Assembly (NCBI GenBank): GCA_903952435.1
Contig: CAJBFN010000001.1
Location: 62,001-126,000, forward strand
Reading direction: 5' to 3'
From: an uncultured bacterium
GTDB lineage: Bacteria; Patescibacteriota; Saccharimonadia; Saccharimonadales; Saccharimonadaceae
Length of the DNA: 64,000 nt
The position numbers and the translations under genes were made by a program. This document shows positions 45,083 through 64,000 of this stretch, one piece after another; within the stretch, counting starts at the first letter, position 1; each line of letters starts with the position of its first letter. The notes beneath the pieces are model-generated. The model had not been told where the DNA came from and did not search any database. It saw only the letters and a list, made by a program, of their open reading frames with translations.

Positions 45083-46501
45083 ATGAATAAAAAAGCATTA
45101 GATCACTCAGTTAAATATATTAATTCATGGTTAGATCTTAGGTATGAAAATAATGATCTGCCAGGGTTTGTGGTCGCTATTTCCTATAAAGGAAAGATTC
45201 TTTTAAATAAAGCTTACGGATACGCGGATATTGATAAAAAAGTTAAATTAACACCAAATCATATCTTTAGAGTTGCTTCACACTCGAAAACTTTCACAGC
45301 GACAGCTCTTATGCAATTGCAAGAACAAGGTAAGCTAAAAATTGATGACTATGCAGTGACTTATTTGCCTTGGTTAAAAGATCATAAGGACAAGAAGTGG
45401 CAAAATGTTACCATTCGTCAGTTAATGTCTCATGGAGCTGGAATTATTAGAGATGGCCAAAATAGTAGTTTTTGGCAATTAGAGCGCCCATTTCCTAATG
45501 CCAAGCAATTAAAAGAAGAGATTTTACAATCAGACCTAGTTATCGATAATAATACAAAACTAAAGTACTCAAACTTTGGCTATTCGTTACTTGGTTTATT
45601 AATTGAAAGTATTTCTGGTAAGACATACAACAATTATGTATTAGAAAATATTAGTGAACCACTAGGACTCAAGAATACTGGACCAGATTATAAATCTGAA
45701 ATTGCGGATAAATTGGCGGTTGGCTACACTCGCAAGATTAATGGTTATCGTTTGCCGATTGATAATATCGAGACAAAAGCAATGTCAGCGGCAACAGGCT
45801 TTTATTCCACATCAGAAGACTTGTGTAATTACTTTACGGCTCAATTTGTGGGTTCGGAAAAACTTATCAATGATGAGTCAAAAAAAGAAATGCAAAGAAC
45901 ACATTGGCGCGCTACTAAACCGTTCCAGAACTTTCAAGAAGATTACGGACTTGGTATTGAAATTGAATATATTAATAATAGAAGAACTATTAGTCATGGA
46001 GGCGGTTTTCCAGGTTTCGCCACGAAAAGCATAGGAGACCCTAAAGATCAGCTAGTAGTCGTCGTGCTAACTAACTGTCACGATGGTTTATCGTCGATGA
46101 TTGCAAGAAACATTTTTCCAATAATCGATTATTTTCTAAATAATACTTCGACGGTTAAGCCAAAACATAATCTAAGTATTCTTGAAGGTCGCTATGTTGG
46201 GCGTTTAGGTTTTATCACCGACATAATCGTGACTGGCGATAAAATTGTTTCAAATTCTCCAAATAATTGGCAACCAATGCAAAATTTAGAGAGTTTAGAA
46301 TATATTGACGATACGACATTCAAGATTGTTGATGCAGACAGTTTCAGTAATGAAGGAGAGAAAGTGATCTTTAAGGTAATAGGCAGCAAAGTCGAGTCGA
46401 TCGATTATAGTGGAGTTATTATAAAACCCGAGAATATTTGGCGAAAAGACATAAAGGGACAAGAACGTATAAAATTGCTTGAACCAAAGCTAGATATGTA
46501 A
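45083..46501 (+). CDS. Serine hydrolase, beta-lactamase/class C-like family
   Basis: FRVASHSKTFTATALMQLQEQGKL (SxxK), YSNFGYSLLG (YxN), SHGGGFPGF. Confidence 0.93.
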   Translation: MNKKALDHSVKYINSWLDLRYENNDLPGFVVAISYKGKILLNKAYGYADIDKKVKLTPNHIFRVASHSKTFTATALMQLQEQGKLKIDDYAVTYLPWLKDHKDKKWQNVTIRQLMSHGAGIIRDGQNSSFWQLERPFPNAKQLKEEILQSDLVIDNNTKLKYSNFGYSLLGLLIESISGKTYNNYVLENISEPLGLKNTGPDYKSEIADKLAVGYTRKINGYRLPIDNIETKAMSAATGFYSTSEDLCNYFTAQFVGSEKLINDESKKEMQRTHWRATKPFQNFQEDYGLGIEIEYINNRRTISHGGGFPGFATKSIGDPKDQLVVVVLTNCHDGLSSMIARNIFPIIDYFLNNTSTVKPKHNLSILEGRYVGRLGFITDIIVTGDKIVSNSPNNWQPMQNLESLEYIDDTTFKIVDADSFSNEGEKVIFKVIGSKVESIDYSGVIIKPENIWRKDIKGQERIKLLEPKLDM

Positions 46502-46605
46502 TCACGCTAAAACGGTGCGTGAATAAGAACGATGCCTATTGTACCTATACAACATGGCGGGTATGGGATTTGAGTGTATAATCAAACTATATAAAAAGGA
46601 TATAA

Positions 46606-47088
46606 ATGAAGCCAGATTTACTAGATAGTTTTGAATTCCGCGGGGAGCATATTGATGTTGAGTGGTTTGATGTGTTGTCGAAGGATAAAATTCCTAATTT
46701 ACCATGGCAACAAGTTTATGTGATTGGTGATTTATCCGGCAAGGTGCCTATTGTCACTTACGAAAATGATAATGATAATTTACCTGGCGGTAAGACCGAG
46801 CCGGGCGAAACGCCTGATCAAACTATCAGGCGCGAGATACAAGAAGAGCTAAATTGTAATGTTATATCCTGGGAGCCATTGGGTTATCAGCGCTGTTCAA
46901 CTAAGGGTAAGAATGAGGTCTATCAATTAAGAGCTTTTGCGCGATTAGAAAAAATTGGCGAATTTGAATCCGATCCCGACGGAAGTGTAATCGGATATTA
47001 CACAATTGACTTAGGTGATTTAGATAAGGCAATTCAATGGGGATTAGTAGGCGAACGTTTGCAAAATATCGCAAAAAAGCATTTTTAG
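46606..47088 (+). CDS. NUDIX hydrolase
   Basis: LPGGKTEPGETPDQTIRREIQEELN (Nudix box). Confidence 0.95.
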   Translation: MKPDLLDSFEFRGEHIDVEWFDVLSKDKIPNLPWQQVYVIGDLSGKVPIVTYENDNDNLPGGKTEPGETPDQTIRREIQEELNCNVISWEPLGYQRCSTKGKNEVYQLRAFARLEKIGEFESDPDGSVIGYYTIDLGDLDKAIQWGLVGERLQNIAKKHF

Positions 47089-47164
47089 ATATATTTTCTG
47101 GATTATCTTATCATGAAATATAGATATAAAATATTATCTCGACCACTTTTGTTATAATGATTTT

Positions 47165-47614
47165 ATGGATGACAATATTGCAGGATTCTTTTTGGATGGT
47201 TGGTGTGTTTTTGATAATTTTGCGCCATTTCAGGTTGAGTGGAGGGGTAAATTATATCCAACGTCCGAACATGCATTTCAAGCTGCTCATTTTATTGAAG
47301 CATATCCAGAATTAGCCGAAAAAGTCAGACTGTGCCGGTCGCCTCGTCAAGCGTCTGATTTTGCTAATGAAAATTCTAATTTTGATGATCCGCAGTGGAA
47401 GCAAAAAAGAGTTAGCACTATGGAAGAGATTGTGAAGTGTAAATTTGATCAACATCTTTTTATAGCTGAAACTCTGAAATTATCTGGCAACAAAATAATA
47501 GTCGAAATGAATGATAATGATTCATTTTGGGGTTGGGGCCCAGATCACAACGGTAATAATGAACTTGGTAAGATTTGGATGAAGTTAAGAGATACGATGA
47601 TATGGAGCAATTAA
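47165..47614 (+). CDS. NADAR-family protein (YbiA-like)
   Basis: FDNFAPFQVEWRGKLYPTSEHAFQAAHF...FWGWGPDHNGNNELGKIWMKLRD. Confidence 0.92.
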   Translation: MDDNIAGFFLDGWCVFDNFAPFQVEWRGKLYPTSEHAFQAAHFIEAYPELAEKVRLCRSPRQASDFANENSNFDDPQWKQKRVSTMEEIVKCKFDQHLFIAETLKLSGNKIIVEMNDNDSFWGWGPDHNGNNELGKIWMKLRDTMIWSN

Positions 47615-48633
47615 AAAAAGAAATGGAAAATACTATATCACCCGTAGGTTGTGAAGCAGCCGCTAGTGAATTAGGATGTAACGTCTCTGATATTCAGGTC
47701 GTTGGAGTCGATGACGGTTACTCGCGTAATCGTCGATCTTTGGTGGGGTATGCGGATAAATGGATTTTTGCCAAAGAGGTTGACCATGATTTACTGCCAG
47801 GCGACGGCGTAGAGGAGATGAGATGGTTGCACAAAGATTTCGAGTGTACTAATGCTTTAAGGCAAACAGTCCCTGAGATTGTGCCCGAATGGGAAAAATT
47901 AACAGCAAATAATCACGTGCTTCTGATGCCGAGCTATAGGGTTGATGATGGATGGCTATGGTCTTTGCCGTTGAAGGCAGACGATCAATCTTTGTATATC
48001 CAAGCAGTGGTTGACGCTACAAAAAAGCTCGAGACTGTCAATTTTGATCAAAATGCCATAGATAATCTAAATTTAAGTCCATATTTTAGAGATAAACTCG
48101 CCCTGGATGATGGACTTGTTTTAATCCTGAAAAATGAAGATATTCGAAATCAACTCCAAGATAAATATACTGCGATGGAGCAGGATGATTCACTTATAAG
48201 TTTGCGCCATGCAATTCGTAAAATGCGCGACTTACTGAAGGACGAAGCGGCGCTTGATGATCTATCAAAAAAAGCAGCCTCACTTATCAACCAGCCAAAT
48301 AATTGTTTTGGGCACTGCGATGTTCGTAGCGATAATATTACCTTTAATCCGCTGACTGGTCAAGTAAAGTTTGTTGATTGGAACTGGGCGTCTTTTGCCA
48401 CTTCGGGATTTGGTGCGACGGAGTTTTTGATTGATATAGCAAGGCGCGGTGTTAATGTTGAGCCTTGGCTTGATAGTCTAAATATAGAAATGCTTGCCGC
48501 AACTGTGGGATTTTACGCAAAACGATGCCTTGAAGACCCACTTGCGCCAGGTAATACATTGCGCGATATGCAGGCTCAATCAGCTGCTGTTGCATTAGAT
48601 TTGTACGATATGGCCGTTAGCGCTAATAGATAA
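47602..48633 (+). CDS. Aminoglycoside phosphotransferase-like (APH) family protein
   Basis: NQPNNCFGHCDVRSDNITFNPLTGQVKFVDWNWAS (HxDxxxxN...DW). Confidence 0.85.
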   Translation: MEQLKKEMENTISPVGCEAAASELGCNVSDIQVVGVDDGYSRNRRSLVGYADKWIFAKEVDHDLLPGDGVEEMRWLHKDFECTNALRQTVPEIVPEWEKLTANNHVLLMPSYRVDDGWLWSLPLKADDQSLYIQAVVDATKKLETVNFDQNAIDNLNLSPYFRDKLALDDGLVLILKNEDIRNQLQDKYTAMEQDDSLISLRHAIRKMRDLLKDEAALDDLSKKAASLINQPNNCFGHCDVRSDNITFNPLTGQVKFVDWNWASFATSGFGATEFLIDIARRGVNVEPWLDSLNIEMLAATVGFYAKRCLEDPLAPGNTLRDMQAQSAAVALDLYDMAVSANR

Positions 48634-48655
48634 TAAAGGCCATACTATAATTAAT

Positions 48656-49153
48656 ATGCTAAAAATATACAAAAGCAAAAAGTCATTCGGCAAGTTATTT
48701 ATCAATACTAAAAAAGAATTAGAAAATATATTAGGCGATGATTGCATAATCGAGCATGTTGGCAGCACGGCAATACCTGGTGTTGATGGCAAGGGTATTA
48801 TTGATGTCTTGATAGGTTTTGATAATGAAGAGCAAATTATTAAGGCGGCCGATAAATTATTACGTCATGGTTATTTTTCTGCAAGAAAAAAATTAGAAGG
48901 TCGGAAGGATCGCGTATTTATGTCGTCCAGTAATGACGATACTACTATCGGTGACGTGCATTTACATATGGTTTTAAAAAATAGCGCAGATTTTATCGAT
49001 TTTATTAAAGTTAGAGATTTTCTTCGCCAAAATCCAGATGAAGCTGAAAAATACTCTGAATTAAAATATAAAATTGCAAAAGATGCTGGTTTTGACAGGG
49101 AAGAATATAAAAAACAGAAGAGTAAATTTATCGAAGAAATATTAAGGAAATAG
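48656..49153 (+). CDS. GrpB family (nucleotidyltransferase-fold) protein
   Basis: CIIEHVGSTAIPGVDGKGIIDVLIGF. Confidence 0.93.
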   Translation: MLKIYKSKKSFGKLFINTKKELENILGDDCIIEHVGSTAIPGVDGKGIIDVLIGFDNEEQIIKAADKLLRHGYFSARKKLEGRKDRVFMSSSNDDTTIGDVHLHMVLKNSADFIDFIKVRDFLRQNPDEAEKYSELKYKIAKDAGFDREEYKKQKSKFIEEILRK

Positions 49154-49227
49154 TTTAATTTTATAGGTATAGCATAAAAACTTGAATTGCAAGCACTGTC
49201 CTTGTTCTAAGGTGATATAATTCTTAT

Positions 49228-50214
49228 ATGATTATCCCAGATAAGTTAAAACTTGGTGACGAGATACGTGTGATTGCCCCTGCAAGATCAATGGGTATTT
49301 TAAGTGACGAATTAAAAGATATTGCCAATAAGCGTCTTTCGGAATTAGGTTATAAAGTTAGTTTTGGCAAAAATGTCGATGTTATGGACGATTTTAAATC
49401 TTCGAGCGTAGATTCCAGAGTTGCGGATTTGCACGATGCTTTTTCGGATAAGAATGTTAAGGGCATTCTTACGGTTATTGGGGGCTTTAATAGTAACCAG
49501 ATGCTTGATTATATTGACTGGGATTTAATAAAAAATAATCCAAAAATATTTTGTGGCTTCTCGGACATTACAATTTTAAATAATGCTTTTTATGCAAAGA
49601 CTGGCCTAGTTTCTTATTCTGGACCTCATTATTCAACTTTTGGTCAGAAATTATATTTTGGCTATACTCTGGATTATTTTAAAAAATGTTGTGTTGATAG
49701 TGCGCCTTTCATCATTGAAGCTTCTTCTGAATGGAGCGATGACCCATGGTATAAAGATCAGGATAGTAGGCAACCAGCAAAAAATAATGGCTTTCTAGTG
49801 ATTAATGAAGGTAAGGCAGAGGGTATTGTGATCGGGGCTAATTTATGCACTTTTAATCTATTACAAGGCACACCGTATATGCCGAGCCTAACTGATACGA
49901 TTCTATTTATTGAAGACGATGCCCATGCTGACGGAACGGACGTCATGGAGTTTGACAGGAACTTACAATCAATAATACAGCTTCCAGATTTCAAAAATGT
50001 AAAAGGTATTGTTATTGGCAGATTTCAAAAAGCTGCAAATATGACAAATGATTTATTAACTAAAATTATTAAAACCAAAAAAGAACTCAATAATATCCCT
50101 ATTATTGCAGGTGTTGATTTTGGCCATACGGACCCCAAGGTAACTTTACCTATAGGAGGCAAAGTTAAGATGGATACCGATAGTAAATCGTTATTGACGA
50201 TAATAGAACACTAG
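49228..50214 (+). CDS. S66-family LD-carboxypeptidase / microcin C7 immunity MccF-like peptidase
   Basis: VIAPARSMGILS, GILTVIGGFNSNQMLDYIDWDLIKNNPKIFCGFSDITIL, IEDDAHADGTDVMEFDRNL. Confidence 0.9.
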   Translation: MIIPDKLKLGDEIRVIAPARSMGILSDELKDIANKRLSELGYKVSFGKNVDVMDDFKSSSVDSRVADLHDAFSDKNVKGILTVIGGFNSNQMLDYIDWDLIKNNPKIFCGFSDITILNNAFYAKTGLVSYSGPHYSTFGQKLYFGYTLDYFKKCCVDSAPFIIEASSEWSDDPWYKDQDSRQPAKNNGFLVINEGKAEGIVIGANLCTFNLLQGTPYMPSLTDTILFIEDDAHADGTDVMEFDRNLQSIIQLPDFKNVKGIVIGRFQKAANMTNDLLTKIIKTKKELNNIPIIAGVDFGHTDPKVTLPIGGKVKMDTDSKSLLTIIEH

Positions 50215-50259
50215 ACTAAATAACCACTATCCTTGTTAAGATTATTTAATTATAGATGT

Positions 50260-51003
50260 CTATACCTTAGTAACAATTTCTAGCGCAATTTGAAATAGTT
50301 TTGCTGAATTTCGTTCGTTCTCTTGCGGGTTTTTGCCGTCGATGTTATCATCGGTGATTAAAAAGCTAGCAAAACTTATACTGCGAAACTGTGCAACAGC
50401 TAGCAGTGATGCCAGCTCCATATCAACAGCTACGCATCCATTATTCTTCATTGTCTGTAATTTTCCAGCCGTTTCTCGATACACGGCATCGGTTGTCCAG
50501 ACTTTGCCGTTTAGAAAAGGTATGCTATTTTCAGAAAATAATTTCTTCATTATATTTATTGAATTATCATTCTGGGCAACTTCATCGCTTGGTGATAAAT
50601 AATGATAGCTTACGCCCTCTTCGCGAAATGCAGAATTTGGAATAATAATAGTATTTTTGTTAATTTCTCTGTTTATTGCACCGCATGTGCCAAACGCGAC
50701 AATTTTGTTTATACCGCTTGCAATTAGTAGCTCCATGTCTGCAGCCGACATAGACGCACCGCCAGCTCCACTGGCTGGTGATACCAACAATATATTTTCT
50801 TGTTCATGCTGATACATAAGAAAATTATTAAAAACTCTTCCACTGGCATTTTTAGCTGGAAAAACTTCAATATTACCTTGTTCGCTTACATAATTTTCCC
50901 AAACTTCATCATCAAAAATCATTAAAGCTTTTTTGGGGCCGCCGAGAAGGTTAAGATTAGGCGGGTTAAATAAGGCATTTTTATCTGGGTCAAAGTTAAT
51001 CAT
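50260..51003 (-). CDS. Nucleoside phosphorylase (PNP/UDP family)
   Basis: LLIASGINKIVAFGTCGAINREI, GCVAVDMELASLLAVAQFRS. Confidence 0.9.
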   Translation of the reverse strand: MINFDPDKNALFNPPNLNLLGGPKKALMIFDDEVWENYVSEQGNIEVFPAKNASGRVFNNFLMYQHEQENILLVSPASGAGGASMSAADMELLIASGINKIVAFGTCGAINREINKNTIIIPNSAFREEGVSYHYLSPSDEVAQNDNSINIMKKLFSENSIPFLNGKVWTTDAVYRETAGKLQTMKNNGCVAVDMELASLLAVAQFRSISFASFLITDDNIDGKNPQENERNSAKLFQIALEIVTKV

Positions 51004-51116: not shown

Positions 51117-51668
51117 ATGAACGATATAATTTCAAAGGCCGGTAGCCTAAAAATAAAACTAACCAAACCAGATGTTAATCGTGATGCGCCTTTTGCCTTG
51201 GGTTGGTTCGAATCTATTCACGGAAAGCAAACATTATTACTTATGGGTAATGCTGAAAACGAAATAAAACCACCCACTCTTGAAGGTGAAAAGAAAACAC
51301 TTCAAAAATTTATCGAATTAGAAAAATCTAATGAACAGCTGACTTGGATGATTCAGGCTGATAATAAGACAATCGGAGCTGTATGGATTGAGCTGAAGGA
51401 TACTGAGTTTGTTAAGTCACCAGCCGTTCATATGATGATAGGTGATCCAGAATATCGAGGTCAGGGTATTGGTAGGGCTATTATGTTCGAGATGATTAAA
51501 TATGCAAAAGAAAAATTAAAATCTAGTGTTATATACTCTCGTCATCTCGTAAGTAATAAACCGGTCACAGCATTGCTAGACTCTTTTAGTTTTATTAATG
51601 ACGGTAAAAGTTATATTGATAGTAATAATCTTGAATGGCAAAATATTAAATTGACATTTGATATATAG
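51117..51668 (+). CDS. GNAT-family N-acetyltransferase
   Basis: HMMIGDPEYRGQGIGRAIMFEMIKYAKEKL. Confidence 0.9.
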   Translation: MNDIISKAGSLKIKLTKPDVNRDAPFALGWFESIHGKQTLLLMGNAENEIKPPTLEGEKKTLQKFIELEKSNEQLTWMIQADNKTIGAVWIELKDTEFVKSPAVHMMIGDPEYRGQGIGRAIMFEMIKYAKEKLKSSVIYSRHLVSNKPVTALLDSFSFINDGKSYIDSNNLEWQNIKLTFDI

Positions 51669-51979: not shown

Positions 51980-53014
51980 ATGTCTCCAGAAAAAATTGTT
52001 TATTATAATAAAGATCACGCAAACCACAAAGGTTGGATTGATAATGAAGGTAAGCCCTGGGATGTCCCCGAAAGACTTTTTAAGGTAGTTGACGCACTAT
52101 TAAGTGATGACAGCCTAAATATTGATTGGATGGTTTCGCCAGAGTTTCATAAAGAGACAATGGATCTTATATCAAAAGTACATTCAGTTGATATGATAAA
52201 GGCTATTAGCGACGCAAGCAAGAACGCCACATTGAACATCCCAGGTAAAACTTTCTACGATAAAGATGCTGAAGCTAATACATCTCTAATTTACCCAGGG
52301 ACTTTTGAGCAAGCTATTATGTCCGTCGAATGTGCGGTATCTGCCGCCGACTCATTGATAAATGGCGAGACAAATCTTGCTATTACTGTCAGTAGGCCAC
52401 CGGGACATCATGCTGGTAGGGAATTTTATCATGGGTTCTGTTATCTTAATAATGCCGCTGTCGCTGCCGAGGCTATGAAGAATAACAACAAGAAAGTCGC
52501 CATACTGGATATAGATGTTCACCATGGTGATGGCACTCAGGATATTTTTTTAAATGACCCAAATGTCATGTATGTATCTTTGCATGCTGACCCGAATTTA
52601 GTTATGCCAGGTACTGGATACAGCCATGAAATAGGTGTCGGCGAGGGTCTTGAAAGAACTGTTAATTTACCATTCCCAATAGGCATCGAGGCAAATGAAT
52701 ATATGAATCTATTAATAAACGCTCAAGAAAAAATAAAAGGGTTTGGCGCAGATTACTTAATCATCGAAGCGGGATTTGATGGTCATAAAAATGAATATCC
52801 TAATCTTCCACCTATTACGCAACTTGGAGATTCTGAATATAGAGAAATAGGGAGACATATTGGCGAACTTAATTTACCAAGCTTAGTTGTATTTAGTGGT
52901 GGCTACAACCAAGACGTTACCGCTCCTGCTTTTGTTTCTTACATAAAAGGCATGGAAGACTCATTACTTATAGATAGGCCGATAGTCCATACGACCGACG
53001 AATTAATACCCTAA
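51980..53014 (+). CDS. Histone deacetylase / acetylpolyamine amidohydrolase family protein
   Basis: TVSRPPGHHAGREFYHGFCYLNNAAVAAEAM, VAILDIDVHHGDGTQDIF, VVFSGGYNQDV. Confidence 0.95.
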   Translation: MSPEKIVYYNKDHANHKGWIDNEGKPWDVPERLFKVVDALLSDDSLNIDWMVSPEFHKETMDLISKVHSVDMIKAISDASKNATLNIPGKTFYDKDAEANTSLIYPGTFEQAIMSVECAVSAADSLINGETNLAITVSRPPGHHAGREFYHGFCYLNNAAVAAEAMKNNNKKVAILDIDVHHGDGTQDIFLNDPNVMYVSLHADPNLVMPGTGYSHEIGVGEGLERTVNLPFPIGIEANEYMNLLINAQEKIKGFGADYLIIEAGFDGHKNEYPNLPPITQLGDSEYREIGRHIGELNLPSLVVFSGGYNQDVTAPAFVSYIKGMEDSLLIDRPIVHTTDELIP

Positions 53015-53031: not shown

Positions 53032-53616
53032 ATGATTGATATTTATATAGTAGAAAGAGCTAAATTAAAAAACGATTCTCGTAAAGTTATTCGTCGTATA
53101 GTTGAATGTATTCTAAGTTCACGCTTAAACTCAACCAGTCTTATAGGCATGTCATTCGATGAATATGGTAAACCATATATCAAGAAAAACTATAGAACAA
53201 ATTTTAATTATTCTCATTCCAAAAACATAGTAGCTATTTCTGTTGTTGCAGATACGGAAGATATTGGCATTGATACGGAACCGTTAGACAGGAGCGTTGA
53301 GATAAGTAAAATTGCACATAGTGCTTTTTCTGAAAGAGAGCTGTTAAAAATACCTAATGATAGATTTGTAAACGCTTGGTGTTTAAAAGAAGCGTCGGTG
53401 AAAATGGTAGGAAAAGGATTTAGAGAGGCGGATCCGTCAGAGTTTTCCATTGAACAAAATCAAAATAAATTTCTTTTACTGCAGGGATTAAGACAAATCG
53501 CCTGCGGTTACACGGAGACATGTATTTATCGTGAAGATGTTATCACGATATGTTCATCGAGTAAAATAGAAGGGATAAATATAATTTTATATAACATAGC
53601 TGATACAATATATTAA
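53032..53616 (+). CDS. Sfp-type 4'-phosphopantetheinyl transferase
   Basis: NFNYSHSKNIVAISV, IGIDTEPL, NAWCLKEASVKMVGKGF; directly upstream of the NRPS genes. Confidence 0.92.
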   Translation: MIDIYIVERAKLKNDSRKVIRRIVECILSSRLNSTSLIGMSFDEYGKPYIKKNYRTNFNYSHSKNIVAISVVADTEDIGIDTEPLDRSVEISKIAHSAFSERELLKIPNDRFVNAWCLKEASVKMVGKGFREADPSEFSIEQNQNKFLLLQGLRQIACGYTETCIYREDVITICSSSKIEGINIILYNIADTIY

Positions 53617-53632: not shown

Positions 53633-55411
53633 ATGAGTAAAGATTTTTACGTACTTGGCTATAGTGGTTTAGATGGCTATCTAAAATATAAGAATAGCAA
53701 TATTATTAGCCTTTCAGATAGAGAGTCGCTCGTAAGTCAAGGAATGGATGCAGCTGCTGCGCTTTTGAAAAATGGCCAAATAATTGCCGCCTCAGCAGAA
53801 GAACGTTTTGGTACTATAAAACATACAGGTAACTTTCCGATGCATGCTATTAACGCTTGTTTAAATAAGGCGGGTATTAAGATATCTGATATTAGTTGCT
53901 TTGCTCATAATTTTAATTATGAACCATATAAAGAACTATTTTTTCTGAATGATTATTCTAAAAATTTATTTGATTCAATACTCAGCGATAAGGCCCAGAT
54001 CGATTTATTTAAATTAAATTACAATATAGATGTTAATGATAAATTCTTCGGCTTCGACCACCATATGTGCCATGCCGCATATGCGTTTGAAACAAGTGGG
54101 TATGAAGCGTCGCTAGTTATCATCGCAGATGGTTTAGGCGAATTTAATAGTATAAGCGTTTATAGTGGTGATAAAATTCAAGGCTTAAAACTGCTAAAAA
54201 CATATGGGCCATCAAGTTCACTGGGAATTTTATATTCTGCTGCAACCGATTATCTAGGGTTTCTTACAAACTCAGATGAGTATAAGATAATGGGCTTAGC
54301 TGCGTATGGAAACAAGACTGTATATAAAAAGCTTTTTGACGAGATTGTTGTGCTTTCTGATAATGGTAGAATTGAAATAAAAAATTTAGTTCCACAAAAA
54401 ATCAATAAACCAGAAGAACGAGAGACCTATGTGTATTTTAAGAGTTGGCTATCTCAATATATATTTAAAGAAAGAGACCCAAACGCTCCAGTCGAGCAGA
54501 AGCACAAAGACTTCGCGGCAGCCTTGCAAGAAAAAATCAATGAAGCAGTTCTGCATTTAGTTCGTCATTGGAGCCATACAACTGGTTTAAATAGTTTATG
54601 CATGGCTGGAGGTGTTGCGTTAAATTGTGTCGCAAATGAGCGCATTGCAAAATCAGGTTTGGTAAAAAGATTTTATGTAGCTCCAGCATCATCAGATGAC
54701 GGGACTTCACTTGGTGCAGCTCTAATAGCTATGCGAAATCGTGGGATATCTTTGAGTAAAAAACATTTTCTTGACATGCCTTTTTATGGCCCATCTATCG
54801 CAGAAGGTATCATAGATTATAGACTGCCAACTGAATTATCTGTTGAAAAACTTAAAGACGGCAAACTTATAGAAATCGTTGCTGATGCACTTGTGGATAA
54901 TAAAATAGTTGCGTGGGCACAGGGGAATATGGAATTTGGGCCACGAGCTCTAGGGCATAGAAGCATATTAGCGATTCCATGTGATGCTAAAATGCGCGAA
55001 AGATTAAATATAGTCACAAAACAACGAGAAAGCTTTAGACCGTTTGCGCCAATCGTGAAAAAAGAATCTATAAATAAATATTTTGAAACATATGATGGCG
55101 TTGTATATAAACATATGTTAGTAAATACCAAAGTACGAGAGAAATATCGTTCTAAACTCCAAGCCGTGATCCACATCGATGGTACTTCTAGAGCACAAGC
55201 AGTTGATAAAAAAGACTTACCATTATTATGGAAGCTTCTCGATGAAATCGAGCGACGAACTACAATTCCAGTACTTCTCAATACATCATTTAATTTAAAA
55301 TCTATGCCAATCGTATGTTATAAAAAGGATGCAATAGAATCGTATTTAAATTCAGATATTGATTTGCTAGTTATTAACAACGAAGTAATACGTAAGAGGC
55401 AAAAAAAGTGA
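53633..55411 (+). CDS. NodU/CmcH/TobZ-family O-carbamoyltransferase
   Basis: FGFDHHMCHAAYAFETSGYEASLVIIADGLGE, SLCMAGGVALNCVANERI, WAQGNMEFGPRALGHRSILAIP. Confidence 0.95.
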   Translation: MSKDFYVLGYSGLDGYLKYKNSNIISLSDRESLVSQGMDAAAALLKNGQIIAASAEERFGTIKHTGNFPMHAINACLNKAGIKISDISCFAHNFNYEPYKELFFLNDYSKNLFDSILSDKAQIDLFKLNYNIDVNDKFFGFDHHMCHAAYAFETSGYEASLVIIADGLGEFNSISVYSGDKIQGLKLLKTYGPSSSLGILYSAATDYLGFLTNSDEYKIMGLAAYGNKTVYKKLFDEIVVLSDNGRIEIKNLVPQKINKPEERETYVYFKSWLSQYIFKERDPNAPVEQKHKDFAAALQEKINEAVLHLVRHWSHTTGLNSLCMAGGVALNCVANERIAKSGLVKRFYVAPASSDDGTSLGAALIAMRNRGISLSKKHFLDMPFYGPSIAEGIIDYRLPTELSVEKLKDGKLIEIVADALVDNKIVAWAQGNMEFGPRALGHRSILAIPCDAKMRERLNIVTKQRESFRPFAPIVKKESINKYFETYDGVVYKHMLVNTKVREKYRSKLQAVIHIDGTSRAQAVDKKDLPLLWKLLDEIERRTTIPVLLNTSFNLKSMPIVCYKKDAIESYLNSDIDLLVINNEVIRKRQKK

Positions 55412-57135
55412 TAGCAAAACAATTACAAATAATCGTTAATTCAAATCCCAATAAAATATCCATAGATGATTGCAATGGAGGAGAGATTAGCTATAGGCAA
55501 TTATGGGAATTAGTTTGTACTTTTTCTGCAGCAATAGATGATTTTGCTCAAGACGATAAATATATTGGCTTAATAGCCGACCAAGATGCATACGCCGTTA
55601 TCGCTCTAGTTTCGACGATATTAAATGGTAGGACTATTATTCCTATAGATCCTAGGCTAAGCGCATTAGAGATTGAAGAAATATTGTCACCTTTTACTTG
55701 CAAGATTATATGCCGAAATATAGACACCCGTATTTTTAGTAAGCGCTTTGTCGCTTTAGAATGTGAAGATCTGATATCTAGAGAGTCTACTAACTATTGC
55801 TTTAAAGATGAAGATACCGATGCATATATTATCCATACATCGGGTACTACTGGCAAACCAAAACCAGTTCTTGCCAAGCAGGGAGCCTTGTTGCATGTTG
55901 TGACTGAGTTAATTTCAAGATATTATATTGACAATAATTCCAATGTTCTGCAATTCGCTTATATGAGCTTTGACTCGTCTTTAGCAGAAATCTTTAGTAC
56001 ATTTCTTTCTGGTGGCACCTTGATAATTCCAGGCTGCCAATTGAGAAATGATGCATATAGCGTTCTTGAGACTTTACTAATGCGTAAAGCTATATCTGTA
56101 GCAACGTTACCTCCGTCATTTGCCCTGGGCTGTAAGACTACCGCGCTATCAAATTTAGATACATTGATTTTAGCTGGTGAAGAATGCCCTATAAATCTAG
56201 CAAATAGTTTATATAAAAAAGTAAAGCACCTAATAAACGCCTATGGACCCACTGAGTCAATTATATGTGCGACTACCTATGAGATAAAGTCCCTACAAAA
56301 TATTTGCAGAGTTCCAATTGGTACGCCTCTAAACGGCATGCGAATCGAGATCGCTAATATAAAAGAAAATTGTAGCGATACGCCAGGATCCGGTGAGATG
56401 TTATTATTCAGTGACTATTTAGCACAAGGTTATCCAGGTCACAAGAGAGAAACATCAGAAAAATTCAAAGTCAATCCAAAAACGAATGCTATTTACTATA
56501 CAACCGGAGATATTGGCCACATAAATGATGATGGCAACTACGAGTTTTTGGGAAGAATAGATAATCAGATAAAAATCAATGGCCAACGGATTGAGCTAGA
56601 AAGTATTGAATCTAACATTAAAAGAATCACCGGCATTACCGAGCTGATTGTAATTTATGACGGCCATCTATATTGCGCATACAAAAATAATGGAGCAGCC
56701 CAATCCTTTGATATTAGGGGTTCATTGTCTGGTAAAATGTCTCTTCATACAATTCCAAATGTATTTATTTTGGTTGATTCAATCCTGCTTGATGGTAATG
56801 GTAAAATAAATCGTCGCGATATGCTTAATAAAATAAAAGAACAATTGCGTAGTACAAAAACTATAAATAAAACCGATAATAATTTTTGTAATGAAATGAT
56901 TATTCTCTGGGAAGCAACAATATCTGCATCTAATTCAATGATTAACGATAATTCAGACTTCTTTGAAGTTGGCGGTGATTCGTTATCTGCTCTAAGACTC
57001 GTCAAGGCTATAAACGACAAATATTTAATAAATATTAAATTAGCAGAAATCCTACAGGGCACCGTAACCCCTTTAAAAATGAGTTCAATAGTAGAGAATA
57101 AGCTTATCTTGACGAGAACATTGAATGATAACTAA
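55408..57135 (+). CDS. NRPS loading-type module: A-PCP (GTG start)
   Basis: A3 IIHTSGTTGKPKPVLAK; A5 NAYGPTESI; A7/A8 YYTTGDIGHINDDGNYEFLGRIDNQIKINGQRIELESIE; A10 NGKINRR; PCP DFFEVGGDSLSALRLV. Confidence 0.96.
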   Translation: MIAKQLQIIVNSNPNKISIDDCNGGEISYRQLWELVCTFSAAIDDFAQDDKYIGLIADQDAYAVIALVSTILNGRTIIPIDPRLSALEIEEILSPFTCKIICRNIDTRIFSKRFVALECEDLISRESTNYCFKDEDTDAYIIHTSGTTGKPKPVLAKQGALLHVVTELISRYYIDNNSNVLQFAYMSFDSSLAEIFSTFLSGGTLIIPGCQLRNDAYSVLETLLMRKAISVATLPPSFALGCKTTALSNLDTLILAGEECPINLANSLYKKVKHLINAYGPTESIICATTYEIKSLQNICRVPIGTPLNGMRIEIANIKENCSDTPGSGEMLLFSDYLAQGYPGHKRETSEKFKVNPKTNAIYYTTGDIGHINDDGNYEFLGRIDNQIKINGQRIELESIESNIKRITGITELIVIYDGHLYCAYKNNGAAQSFDIRGSLSGKMSLHTIPNVFILVDSILLDGNGKINRRDMLNKIKEQLRSTKTINKTDNNFCNEMIILWEATISASNSMINDNSDFFEVGGDSLSALRLVKAINDKYLINIKLAEILQGTVTPLKMSSIVENKLILTRTLNDN

Positions 57136-60100: not shown

Positions 60101-61408
60101 AGGGATATATTAATGTATCAGACACCAGAAGAACTGGCAGCCACCGTTGAAGATAGGCAACTGGAGCAATTTAATCCCAATATGAAGCTTAGCGGTGATA
60201 CGCCCATACAGCTTGATTATCTAGAAGAATCAGGTAAGTATAGAGAATATGGAGAGATTCAGGCAGCTTTATTACGTTTTAGGATTAATAAAAAAGATAT
60301 CAATTTTGAAAATGTTATCTCAAGAATGTTACAAACGCATTCGTCCCTTAATCCGAAGGATCTTAAGAACATACTCAAAAGAGATGACAGTCTGGCTATA
60401 TTATCAGTAGAGCAGATTGAGAATATGGTTGAATTAATGCGTAAAGATGTCAATATTGAGCATCGACCAGCTACCTTGCGTTGGACTATATCGGATGGGA
60501 TTATATATTTATTAATAGTAACACATCATTTTGTGATAGATTATTATTCATGGAAAATCATATATGATGATATCTCATTATTATTAAACGGCATAACTCC
60601 AGAAATACATAATGATCAAATTATTAAGATATGGCTTGGAAATCGACTAAATAATTTGAGCGTGAGGAACCAAAGTAGTGATGAGTTTAAAAATAACTCA
60701 AATACAAATATCATTCACACTAAAAATAAACAGCTGATATTAGCGAGTGATACTAAAATTATTTATCACAATTTTTCTGTAGGCTATGACATAGAACTGC
60801 TATTATCAGAGAATGATATGGATATTAATAGTTTCGTCTGTTATTCAATAGCTAAAGCATATATCCAGATAACTGGTGATTCTATGTTCGAATACAATAT
60901 TGAGGCCTCAATTCGACAACTCGATAAGTCTAATATACTAAGTAAAGAGATCGGATGGATGACTTATAAATACCCCAGAGTAATTAATCATAACGACAGT
61001 GCTGCGGAAGTTTATAATGACCTGTCTAATAGTATAAATAGCGGAGTAGATTATGGGCTAATGAAATACAATATTGACTATGACGAAAGCCCAAGAATAA
61101 CCAACCCATTATGGACTATCAATTACATAGGAAAAACACTAAACGAGAATGATGATCTTAAAATTATAAAAACAAAATCCTATAAGGAAGTACCTTATAT
61201 TGAACTAGACATTATCAATAGTGGGGATCATATTACCTTTGAATGTATGACAAATACCAATCTAAGCGATAGATTTTTTGGTGATTTATGGGAAAAAATG
61301 GATAATATCATGCATACTATTTTGAACGACCTACGCACGCCCAATATAGCTATAAATCTAAGTAGCAATCGCGAAAAGAATATTTTAGATAGGATCAAAA
61401 ATGGATAA
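57125..61408 (+). CDS. NRPS extension module: C-A-PCP-E
   Basis: C motif VPHIIFDEISW; A3 IIFTSGSTGLPKGVMIKHQG; A5 NAYGPAEAS; A8 GRKDYQVKINGQRLELGEIE; PCP NYFDAGGDSLLSVKIV; E-domain motifs THHFVIDYYSW, EIGWMTYKYPRVI, YGLMKYN, INYIGK. Confidence 0.96.
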   Translation: MITNLTPIEQAFWYQHKLNPKSDSNNIVHKIMFSRPLSKVDLDCCLENMCNKYPILKSRFIDIDGTPVRKAIGRGYDIEISADPLSSIDKAQKQFDLENDNLLRCVLLDSKVLYVTVPHIIFDEISWNIFVKDLCKYIKGDNNKTFEITKDTNYIPSDLNTDIRIYWKNELIGASDRVGLMSNNRIISDGDKDLSFFKHKIDKETSRKLKQLAISLHSSMNSMLMTLFCVTLNKTTSDNDIVIGTPVTIRDEQSEDQIGCYINVLPCRFIIKNEDQINNFISKKSMDMWSHLDMRNFSLPELLRDLKLDQNDELRGLYNVIFEYVPQKLEQDKLIVSDDILPNLAVKLDLMVSLFESLNGTDIYVEYRNTQYSKEYIENIIKRFINVCDHTITNPDSKIKDISILFRGEDKTLIEIGCGDKRVIKAPYIWNRFQTNAFANHDSIAVKSNYKTLTYSELEYLSASYADKLEELGASEGSIIGVYMNRSVEYVATMLAIWSLGAIYVPLDINQPSERITSMITQANIGFIVTNSDNRKSINVSVPFYIIDSPLTLELKKNRKITRKYEPTANDVAYIIFTSGSTGLPKGVMIKHQGFMNHLEIMIHELGLNKSSVVAQTAEVSFDISVWQLICPLLTGGAVRICNKDDVTSVQKIYNIINKDRISVLEIVPSLLSVYLEAEQSNLVDRKCLKNTIIITTGEAISPSIVKQWFNIYQNKPLLNAYGPAEASDDTHFYHIKTDSSIEQTIPIGHPLFNIETYILNNDMQLCPIGIIGEIHIGGIAVADGYINDKKLTDKVFIDNPFLNNKSKMYKTGDYGMWRNDGALNFLGRKDYQVKINGQRLELGEIENKILNLDYVKDAAVIFEDTPSGKRLRGYVTFKDKAHGNDDIKRDLENKLPSFMIPRSIEIIDNIPRNSNGKLDRKYLESLRDTVVKDECLYQINNTTLNNIIRIWSDNIGRSIKPDTNYFDAGGDSLLSVKIVNNLNKAGVPVSVRDILMYQTPEELAATVEDRQLEQFNPNMKLSGDTPIQLDYLEESGKYREYGEIQAALLRFRINKKDINFENVISRMLQTHSSLNPKDLKNILKRDDSLAILSVEQIENMVELMRKDVNIEHRPATLRWTISDGIIYLLIVTHHFVIDYYSWKIIYDDISLLLNGITPEIHNDQIIKIWLGNRLNNLSVRNQSSDEFKNNSNTNIIHTKNKQLILASDTKIIYHNFSVGYDIELLLSENDMDINSFVCYSIAKAYIQITGDSMFEYNIEASIRQLDKSNILSKEIGWMTYKYPRVINHNDSAAEVYNDLSNSINSGVDYGLMKYNIDYDESPRITNPLWTINYIGKTLNENDDLKIIKTKSYKEVPYIELDIINSGDHITFECMTNTNLSDRFFGDLWEKMDNIMHTILNDLRTPNIAINLSSNREKNILDRIKNG

Positions 61409-63998
61409 CAATATAAACATAGAAAAAGTACTGCCAATATTGCCAGTACAGAGTGGCATGATAGCTGATAGCGCAGCTGGCACCGACGGCTATTACATTG
61501 AGCAGATTTGCATACAATTAAAACCAAGTATAAACGACAAAATATTATTATCGCGTATTAAGAGAATCGTTGAATCAAATGAAATCCTTAGAACAGTTTT
61601 TGACTGGTCGGAAGACAACGCAATACAGGTCATTATATCAGGGATAGAGCCTATCACAGCCATAATGTCCATAAATTCAGATATAGAACTAGACGCTATA
61701 TTAAATAAAGAAAGACAAACTTTAAAACCGATTAATATAGCTCCGCCGATCCGCTTTGCTATTGTTCATAATAAGGCAATCCAATATTTAGTCGTTACTT
61801 ATCACCATGTACTTTTAGATGGCCCTAGTGTAAACAGTCTACTTGATATTCTATGCACAGATGGCGGTTACTCAAAGAACTCAACAGAACAATATATTAA
61901 ATGGCAAAATGATAACACGTCGAGGCAACAACACATAGGAACATGGCAGGGATTATTAGACGGATTAATACCAGAGGACGGAATATTACCGATATCTCGT
62001 GACAATAAGGGTAAGTTAGCTATATCAAAAATTATGGTAGATATTGATTTTCGAGATAAATTGATTAAAAAAACAAAATCAATGAGCCTTACTCCAGCAG
62101 TTTGCATGCAAGTTCTCTGGGGGCAATGGTTAGCTTCTTATTTTTCCAAAAATAAGTTACTGTATGGGCTAGTAGTTAGTACTCGCATCAATGGGATCAA
62201 CGATCGGGCAATTGGCCCGTATATAGCGACTATACCATGTCTTGATAAATTAATGATCGGTAGTAGTTTTGTCGAAGTTAGTAAAAAGAAGCAAGAAGAT
62301 GTTCTTGCAATCGATATAGCTAAACATATTTCACTAAGGAATATTACACAAAATGTATCGCCATATACTGGACTATTTGATGCAATTCTTAACATAACGA
62401 CACATCCCGTAGTAAGCAAAAAATATTATGAGGTAATAAATACTTATGAGAATACAGGATATAAGCTTAGCGCTGATATTATAATTACCGACAATATCGA
62501 AATATTGTTTTCTTCATCTTGTCTAAAGAATAATCAGCTTAATGATGCTATACGGTCATTTTCGGAATATTGTTCTGTGCAGATAGAACAAGAAAATATA
62601 ATCGACATAGATCAAAAATATAAGATACATAAAATTAATCATATAAATGATAAAAAAACCATTAAAGATATCGACGTATTAGTTGCCCAATCTATTAATA
62701 TAGAGCCAAAAGTTGTCGATATGGAGATGTCATTCATCGAAAATGGCGGCGACTCAATAAATGCCCTTCGTCTGGTAAATTTATTACAAGCAAGAGACAT
62801 AGCCTGTTCTGTTGGTGATATCCTAAGAGCTAAGTCACTAAATAACATAACTGATAAAAATGCTGATAATGTTGGCATTCAGACACAGAAAAAAAATAAC
62901 AGCAAAGTAGAATACGAGGTAGACGTATTAAATATTCCATTTTCAACACAGCGTATAATCGACGCTTACAAAACGGGTTACGGACAGGACTATCACGAAC
63001 AAACTGCGTTTAAGCTTGCATCCGACCTTGATGTTAACATAATGAAGCTGGCATTATATGAACTTGGCATGGAAATACCAACTTTACGCTTGAAGTACTC
63101 AGAAGGGCATATAAACAAACAGAAACTAACCAATAAGCCCCGCATAAGCCTAAAGAATATTAAAAGAAATACAACTTTTGATGATTTTATCAAAAGAGTC
63201 TCCGATGATGATATGAAGCATGAAATTAATATTAACCATGGAGATTTATTTAGAGTAGTAATGCAATCATATAAAAATGGCTATTACTTCCTCATAGGTT
63301 TTTCAGCACTGGTAACCGACGGATGGTCTTTTTCAAAATTATTATCGAGGTTATTCGAAATTTATGGAGATATATCAAAAAATTGCCATACACGTCGTGT
63401 GGATGTATCTTATATTAATTACTGTAAACAATATCAAACCGACAACACTCAAATAGAGCAAGATCTACCTATAAAAAAATTATCATATTCATTTGATGTA
63501 TCTCAAAAAAAATATTATATAAATAAGGCACAAACTAATAAGATAATTAGTAACTGTAAATCTAAGAATCTAACTATTAATGATTATTTATTAAAACAAG
63601 CCATATCTATTCTTACCGGTCGAGATTTTTCAAATCTTGAAATTTATGAAAATGGTCGCAACAATTTCAGTCTTTATGATTCTGTGGGGCCGTATAGTCA
63701 TTTATTAACAAAAACAATAAATAACGTAATATCAAATAGGGCATATTTTGTTTTTGAGAATTACCCAAAAGATGATGAAAATCGCTTAAGAAATAATATG
63801 ATAGAGAATTTTAAAGAAAACGGCAATTGGCGACGCACATTATTGCCACCAGCTACAATATTAGGCTTATCGTTTGAAACAACAGAAGACGAGATTATTG
63901 TGCTAATCGCGGCTCGTAGAGGAAGTGACATTAAAATTAATGATTACTGGGAGGACTTAATTAATATTATAAATAAGGAGGATAAATATGGATTTTGA
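61401..63998 (+). CDS. NRPS protein lacking an A domain: C-PCP-C(degenerate)
   Basis: C motif YHHVLLDGPS; PCP MSFIENGGDSINALRLVNLL; second C-like domain FSTQRIIDAY...FSALVTDGWSF without the HH; TGA stop at 63996-63998. Confidence 0.92.
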   Translation: MDNNINIEKVLPILPVQSGMIADSAAGTDGYYIEQICIQLKPSINDKILLSRIKRIVESNEILRTVFDWSEDNAIQVIISGIEPITAIMSINSDIELDAILNKERQTLKPINIAPPIRFAIVHNKAIQYLVVTYHHVLLDGPSVNSLLDILCTDGGYSKNSTEQYIKWQNDNTSRQQHIGTWQGLLDGLIPEDGILPISRDNKGKLAISKIMVDIDFRDKLIKKTKSMSLTPAVCMQVLWGQWLASYFSKNKLLYGLVVSTRINGINDRAIGPYIATIPCLDKLMIGSSFVEVSKKKQEDVLAIDIAKHISLRNITQNVSPYTGLFDAILNITTHPVVSKKYYEVINTYENTGYKLSADIIITDNIEILFSSSCLKNNQLNDAIRSFSEYCSVQIEQENIIDIDQKYKIHKINHINDKKTIKDIDVLVAQSINIEPKVVDMEMSFIENGGDSINALRLVNLLQARDIACSVGDILRAKSLNNITDKNADNVGIQTQKKNNSKVEYEVDVLNIPFSTQRIIDAYKTGYGQDYHEQTAFKLASDLDVNIMKLALYELGMEIPTLRLKYSEGHINKQKLTNKPRISLKNIKRNTTFDDFIKRVSDDDMKHEININHGDLFRVVMQSYKNGYYFLIGFSALVTDGWSFSKLLSRLFEIYGDISKNCHTRRVDVSYINYCKQYQTDNTQIEQDLPIKKLSYSFDVSQKKYYINKAQTNKIISNCKSKNLTINDYLLKQAISILTGRDFSNLEIYENGRNNFSLYDSVGPYSHLLTKTINNVISNRAYFVFENYPKDDENRLRNNMIENFKENGNWRRTLLPPATILGLSFETTEDEIIVLIAARRGSDIKINDYWEDLINIINKEDKYGF

Positions 63999-64000
63999 GA
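63988..64000 (+). CDS. Start of a further operon gene overlapping the NRPS stop (cut by the window edge)
   Basis: AAGGAGGATAAATATGGATTTTGAGA: strong RBS plus ATG overlapping the upstream TGA. Confidence 0.6.

Follow-up and report, generated by a model that had tools for sequence, protein, structure and literature searches.

A terminal NRPS subunit with an A-less carrier and a His-less condensation-like end domain in a Saccharibacterium

Trans-loaded NRPS modules without an A domain of their own and non-catalytic domains that resemble condensation (C) domains are each already known. The A-less carrier of CmnI has been shown to be loaded in trans with L-Dap by CmnA-A1, and the same paper reviews the fungal enzymes SidC, SidD, and Nps6, in which an A domain located upstream fills the A-less units (PMC12400406). 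The BGCs described in CPR bacteria are rare and of the LAP, lantipeptide, and terpene types, none of them being an NRPS (PMC7298704), and in two cultured Saccharibacteria NRPS/PKS genes were sought and were absent (PMC8694215). The literature that we searched contains no description of a Saccharibacterial NRPS, although one may exist elsewhere. Here, we analyse an NRPS gene cluster located in a window of 64,000 nucleotides (C1:62001-126000, C1 being a contig of a 686,464-base genome with 11 contigs and 97.9% completeness) and focus on its terminal subunit, which carries a degenerate condensation-like domain, designated Cdeg, at its C-terminal end (Table 1).

Table 1. Features of the gene cluster; positions refer to the window or, where indicated, to locus L004.
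Feature	Position	Strand	Basis and remarks
GNAT acetyltransferase 1, possible cluster edge	51117..51668	+	Pfam; not seen in the G103 cluster
HDAC / acetylpolyamine amidohydrolase-like deacetylase	51980..53014	+	Pfam; 58% identity to G103 cluster protein
4'-phosphopantetheinyl transferase (Sfp/AusB-like)	53032..53616	+	Pfam
NodU/TobZ-type carbamoyltransferase	53633..55411	+	Pfam; PF02543 has no match in the G103 genome
A1-T1 subunit, 575 aa, probable initiation	55408..57135	+	Pfam
C1-A2-T2-E subunit, 1427 aa	57125..61408	+	Pfam; E groups with E domains
C2-T3-Cdeg terminal NRPS subunit, 865 aa	61401..63998	+	Pfam, ORF, alignment
C2 condensation domain, HHVLLDG intact at 61803-61823	61422..62657	+	Pfam, tree
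T3 carrier domain, GGDS, Ser452 at 62754-62756	62679..62852	+	Pfam; no A domain in cis
Cdeg, degenerate condensation-like domain; SALVTDG at 63303-63323	62940..63995	+	alignment
EctB-type diaminobutyrate-2-oxoglutarate aminotransferase, start	63988..64000	+	continues past the window, L004 11989-13236
GNAT2, next after EctB-type gene	L004 13271-13774		50% identity to G103 GNAT

The terminal subunit is encoded by an ORF that starts with ATG and contains no internal stop codon. A Pfam search of the whole ORF yields Condensation matches over two stretches and a single PP-binding domain (residues 427-484), but no AMP-binding domain. The order C-PCP-C-like without an A domain, as put forward in the initial annotation, is thus borne out, also by the spacing of about eight residues between C2 and T3, which leaves no room for an A-domain remnant. 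The C2 motif, in full YHHVLLDG, and the GGDS motif of T3 are conserved, as is typical of an NRPS terminal subunit, and in the domain tree, whose references are plasmid-borne NRPSs labelled by domain context, C2 lies on the DCL side at an open fork, as expected for a C domain that follows an E domain. The ORF overlaps its 5' neighbour by 8 nt, and the ATG of the next gene, preceded by AAGGAGGA, overlaps the stop of the ORF by 11 nt, so the gene lies within an operon, which, as had been claimed, continues at ATG 63988.

A homologous cluster is present in a second genome, G103 (JAUIGH010000001.1, MAG Co_bin.139), which belongs to another genus of the same family. It comprises genes for a GNAT, a fused A-T-C-A-T-E protein, a C-T-Cdeg protein (949 aa), a PPTase, and an HDAC-like protein, the NRPS parts being 31% (A1), 32% (C-A-T-E), and 21% (C-T-Cdeg) identical to those of the window. 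The NRPS of the window consists of three modules, and as A1-T1-C-A2-T2-E is a single polypeptide in G103, this fusion supports the module order A1-T1, C1-A2-T2-E, C2-T3-Cdeg that we infer for the three separate genes of the window. In G103 the GNAT gene and an ectB-like gene precede the NRPS genes; the latter (L009, C49:14007-15216, minus strand) is broken by frameshifts, which reflect either real decay or an assembly error in this fragmented MAG. The C1 motif reads PHIIFDE in the window and HHIVLSA in G103 (L012 5761-6990), where both His residues are kept and the motif Asp is replaced.

Cdeg is related to the C domains, from one of which it descended, but is degenerate. Its motif (residues 635-641) lies in the context FSALVTDGWSF, i.e. 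both motif His residues are substituted, whereas the Asp, the Gly, and the trailing WSF are retained. The loss of both His residues had been noticed before and withstands closer inspection, since alignments to eight C/E domains, drawn from this cluster and its G103 relative, place SALVTDG in the motif columns, ruling out a misread motif. Cdeg from G103 is of full length and has HILVTDG at this position in the alignment. Thus, the second, catalytic His of the HHxxxDG motif of catalytic C domains is replaced by Ala (window) or Ile (G103), and the C-T-Cdeg design together with the loss of the second His is conserved in two genera. The window copy lacks about 43 aa at about 63738, which are present in the G103 homologue between 'VGPYSHLL' and 'FVFENYP' and belong to the second half of the domain; the other reading frames contain no out-of-frame remnant of this stretch, so that a frameshift hiding it is ruled out.

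Nevertheless, Cdeg still has the hallmarks of a condensation-domain fold, as PF00668 matches it with 51 bits, above the cut-off, and all Foldseek top matches of the AlphaFold models of both copies are C/E-type domains, although these models are too weak (mean pLDDT 48 and 55) for a pocket to be discerned. In the domain tree the two C1 domains group with LCL domains, and C2 of both clusters and Cdeg from G103 lie on the DCL side at the open fork. Cdeg of the window sits on a long branch and is unplaced, but falls outside the starred clade of E domains, which includes the E domains of both clusters, and with its lack of His it does not qualify as an epimerisation domain. A single clade of the two Cdeg copies is not rejected by the AU test (p-AU 0.43). 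Overall, Cdeg is probably a scaffold or a release aid rather than a catalyst of peptide bond formation.

How, then, is T3 charged? The initial annotation had proposed loading either in trans or by a downstream protein. The second possibility finds no support, as the adjoining genes are not NRPS genes: inspection of the downstream genes, which had been recommended, reveals the diaminobutyrate aminotransferase gene followed by the GNAT2 gene, and neither a canonical module with an A domain nor a TE or reductase follows. Loading in trans, by contrast, agrees with a carrier that has no A domain in cis and with A domains encoded elsewhere in the cluster. Genome-wide, PF00501 detects only two AMP-binding domains, which lie upstream within the same cluster, and thus T3 probably borrows A1 or A2, which we consider the most likely route. 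The same genome contains three PF00668 matches, the E domain falling below that search, and a profile search finds no PF00975 thioesterase.

The pocket of A2 reads DIWEITADD(K), with D-I-W-E-I-T-A-D-D in both clusters, which we take to be a Dab-type code, and that of A1 reads DSATIAAIC(K) and is hydrophobic/aromatic-like. Hence, A2 probably activates diaminobutyrate (Dab), and there is a weak indication of a hydrophobic or aromatic substrate for A1, both calls being based on a visual reading of the pockets against specificity codes. No direct precedent for the Dab code was retrieved from the literature. Independent support for Dab comes from the EctB-type gene in the cluster, whose product scores 612.7 bits against the TIGR02407 equivalog model (cut-off 552.2).

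Based on these findings we favour, with moderate confidence, a model in which C2-T3-Cdeg terminates an NRPS of three modules, T3 being charged in trans by an upstream A domain and Cdeg being kept as a non-catalytic platform. A1-T1 would start the chain, C1-A2-T2-E would add an amino acid, probably Dab made by the EctB-type enzyme, and subsequently epimerise it, and C2 would join the resulting D-ending dipeptide to the residue on T3. This residue would be provided by A1 or A2, a twofold use of A2 being more likely, and Cdeg may dock on T3 to serve an A domain acting in trans, an enzyme for tailoring, or a nucleophile for release, although its exact role is a matter of guesswork.

Besides a platform, the reading we favour, Cdeg may represent a release aid that works without His, or a remnant. 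The genes present suggest no obvious enzyme for chain release, and Cdeg could catalyse this step through another residue. As an unorthodox releasing domain it would allow an amine to attack the peptidyl-T3 thioester without a catalytic His and thereby replace the missing TE. Its terminal position in both clusters with no TE following, the retention of the motif Asp and Gly and of WSF, and the fact that chain-releasing terminal C domains are known, with structures of enacyloxin and fungal CT domains among the fold matches, are all consistent with this idea. However, releasing C domains generally retain the second motif His, which both Cdeg copies have lost, and the window copy additionally lacks the 43-aa stretch of its C-terminal half. 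We thus regard release by Cdeg, for which free Dab, a polyamine, or an amine in a peptide side chain would be the candidate nucleophiles, as unlikely, if worth keeping in mind.

That Cdeg is a decaying, functionless leftover of a lost fourth module is an improbable explanation, even though the window copy is shortened, long-branched, and devoid of both His residues. Cdeg is found in both clusters, and the identity between the two genomes (18.2%) is close to that of the functional domains E (18.8%) and C1 (19.9%) and slightly lower than that of C2 (22.1%). As its divergence is similar to that of working domains, we argue that Cdeg is still constrained. Moreover, the ORF spans Cdeg up to the overlapping start codon, and 350 useless residues would be unexpected in a small, gene-dense genome.

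Very improbable is the assignment of Cdeg to the true X-domains or interface domains, which bring a specific oxidase to the carrier. A similar anatomy, i.e. a non-catalytic C-like domain adjoining the last carrier, speaks for the X-domain-like nature suggested in the initial annotation, but this assignment is not supported, as neither a P450 nor an Fe/2OG oxygenase that could act as partner is present among the cluster genes scanned, no TE follows, and X-domains rank at about 34-38 in the fold searches, amid ordinary C and E domains and without any preference.

Solved relatives of the HDAC-like deacetylase include acetylpolyamine amidohydrolases, and together with the GNATs this enzyme would be compatible with a cycle acting on amino groups, either as an acetyl guard or for self-protection; our literature search on HDAC-like enzymes in NRPS clusters found no direct precedent. 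The GNATs are not supported as EctA, the G103 GNAT giving a 17-bit match and none being listed for GNAT2. It is tempting, but a long shot, to combine these elements into one scheme in which a Dab-specific A2 serves twice, for T2 and, with docking by Cdeg, in trans for T3, the terminal Dab side-chain amine releases the product as a lactam without TE and His, the GNAT/HDAC-like pair attaches and removes a protective acetyl group on Dab, and the product acts on the host or competitors.

Several neighbouring genes are noted in passing. Just after the cluster (L004 13906-14625) a 239-aa protein is encoded that is not matched by Pfam and contains an HEALH motif of metal-binding-like type, and further downstream (L004 15914-18552, i.e. 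C1:129913-132551) follow a PaaK-like adenylate-forming protein (L004 15914-17440, 508 aa, undetected by Pfam), which might conceivably provide an activated substrate for T3, and, directly after it, a ThiF/E1-like protein of 376 aa, which scores 268 bits against the model of the Rv1355c family, under its cut-off. On the 5' side of the cluster a variable island (45083-51003) encodes a beta-lactamase-fold hydrolase, NUDIX, choline-kinase/phosphotransferase-like and GrpB proteins, an S66 LD-carboxypeptidase (MccF superfamily), and a PNP-family phosphorylase, which could function in self-protection or product processing.

The 16S sequence of the host matches four of four TM7-specific primers/probes exactly, identifying the host as a Saccharibacterium, a tiny and probably host-dependent one. 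C domains are rare in its relatives, being detected in one of 28 genomes of the genus (this genome), in two of 394 genomes of the family, and, above the cut-off, in one of 379 genomes of the phylum. A profile search with the subunit in 392 genomes of the order yielded this genome only, a scan of genome contigs returned G103 as the sole record, a scan of viral contigs found nothing, and plasmid searches gave distant C-domain matches only. Compared with its relatives, the cluster sits in a variable island, as the conserved flanks are about 25 kb apart here versus about 1, 4.9, and 8.5 kb in three further members of the genus; the downstream sensor kinase is matched in 28 of 28 genus genomes. In spite of the rarity of NRPS genes in Saccharibacteria, contamination or a chimeric contig is barely credible, as the cluster lies on a 169-kb contig between flanks whose synteny is kept in further genus members, has a homologue in a second genome of the family, and tracks the GC content of the host contig in both genomes (35% versus 38% for the whole window; 48% versus 54% for the rest of the contig in G103).

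Saccharibacteria are commonly viewed as organisms that have lost biosynthetic capacity and depend on other bacteria for their living. The surprise is the Saccharibacterial host, such machinery having hardly been seen in the group, while the new element, a variant of known themes, is the C-T-Cdeg combination with a His-less end domain shared by two genera. An intact NRPS in a cluster of about 13.8 kb (HDAC-like gene through GNAT2), i.e. 2% of the 686-kb genome, with a counterpart kept in a second genus of this family, suggests that some Saccharibacteria produce a dedicated small molecule, possibly directed at their hosts. Owing to its small size, the cluster could be expressed as a whole in a laboratory strain, and it constitutes a natural test case for the role of a His-less condensation-like domain beside an A-less module.

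The locus shares features with several known systems. The X-domain of glycopeptide synthetases (4TX2/4TX3) is, like Cdeg, a degenerate, non-catalytic C-like domain adjoining the last carrier, whereas in the cluster described here no P450 is seen, a TE is missing, and there is no preferential fold match. The releasing C domains of fungal CT type and of enacyloxin biosynthesis are terminal and work without TE, as would Cdeg, but they are generally known to keep the second motif His, which is Ala or Ile in Cdeg. The BGCs of CPR bacteria likewise represent secondary metabolism in ultrasmall genomes, although they are of other types and include no NRPS. SidC, SidD, and Nps6 resemble the T3 module in having an A-less unit, but are eukaryotic enzymes. 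CmnI and VioI, module 3 of capreomycin and viomycin synthesis, come from a different setting, CmnI being encoded in a much larger, actinomycete cluster and having its carrier followed by a C domain at the C terminus, whereas here an intact C domain precedes T3 and the trailing Cdeg lacks the His motif. Nevertheless, they share with C2-T3-Cdeg an A-less carrier in a separate subunit, a C domain after the carrier, diamino-acid chemistry, and, as we infer for T3, carrier loading by the A domain of another subunit.
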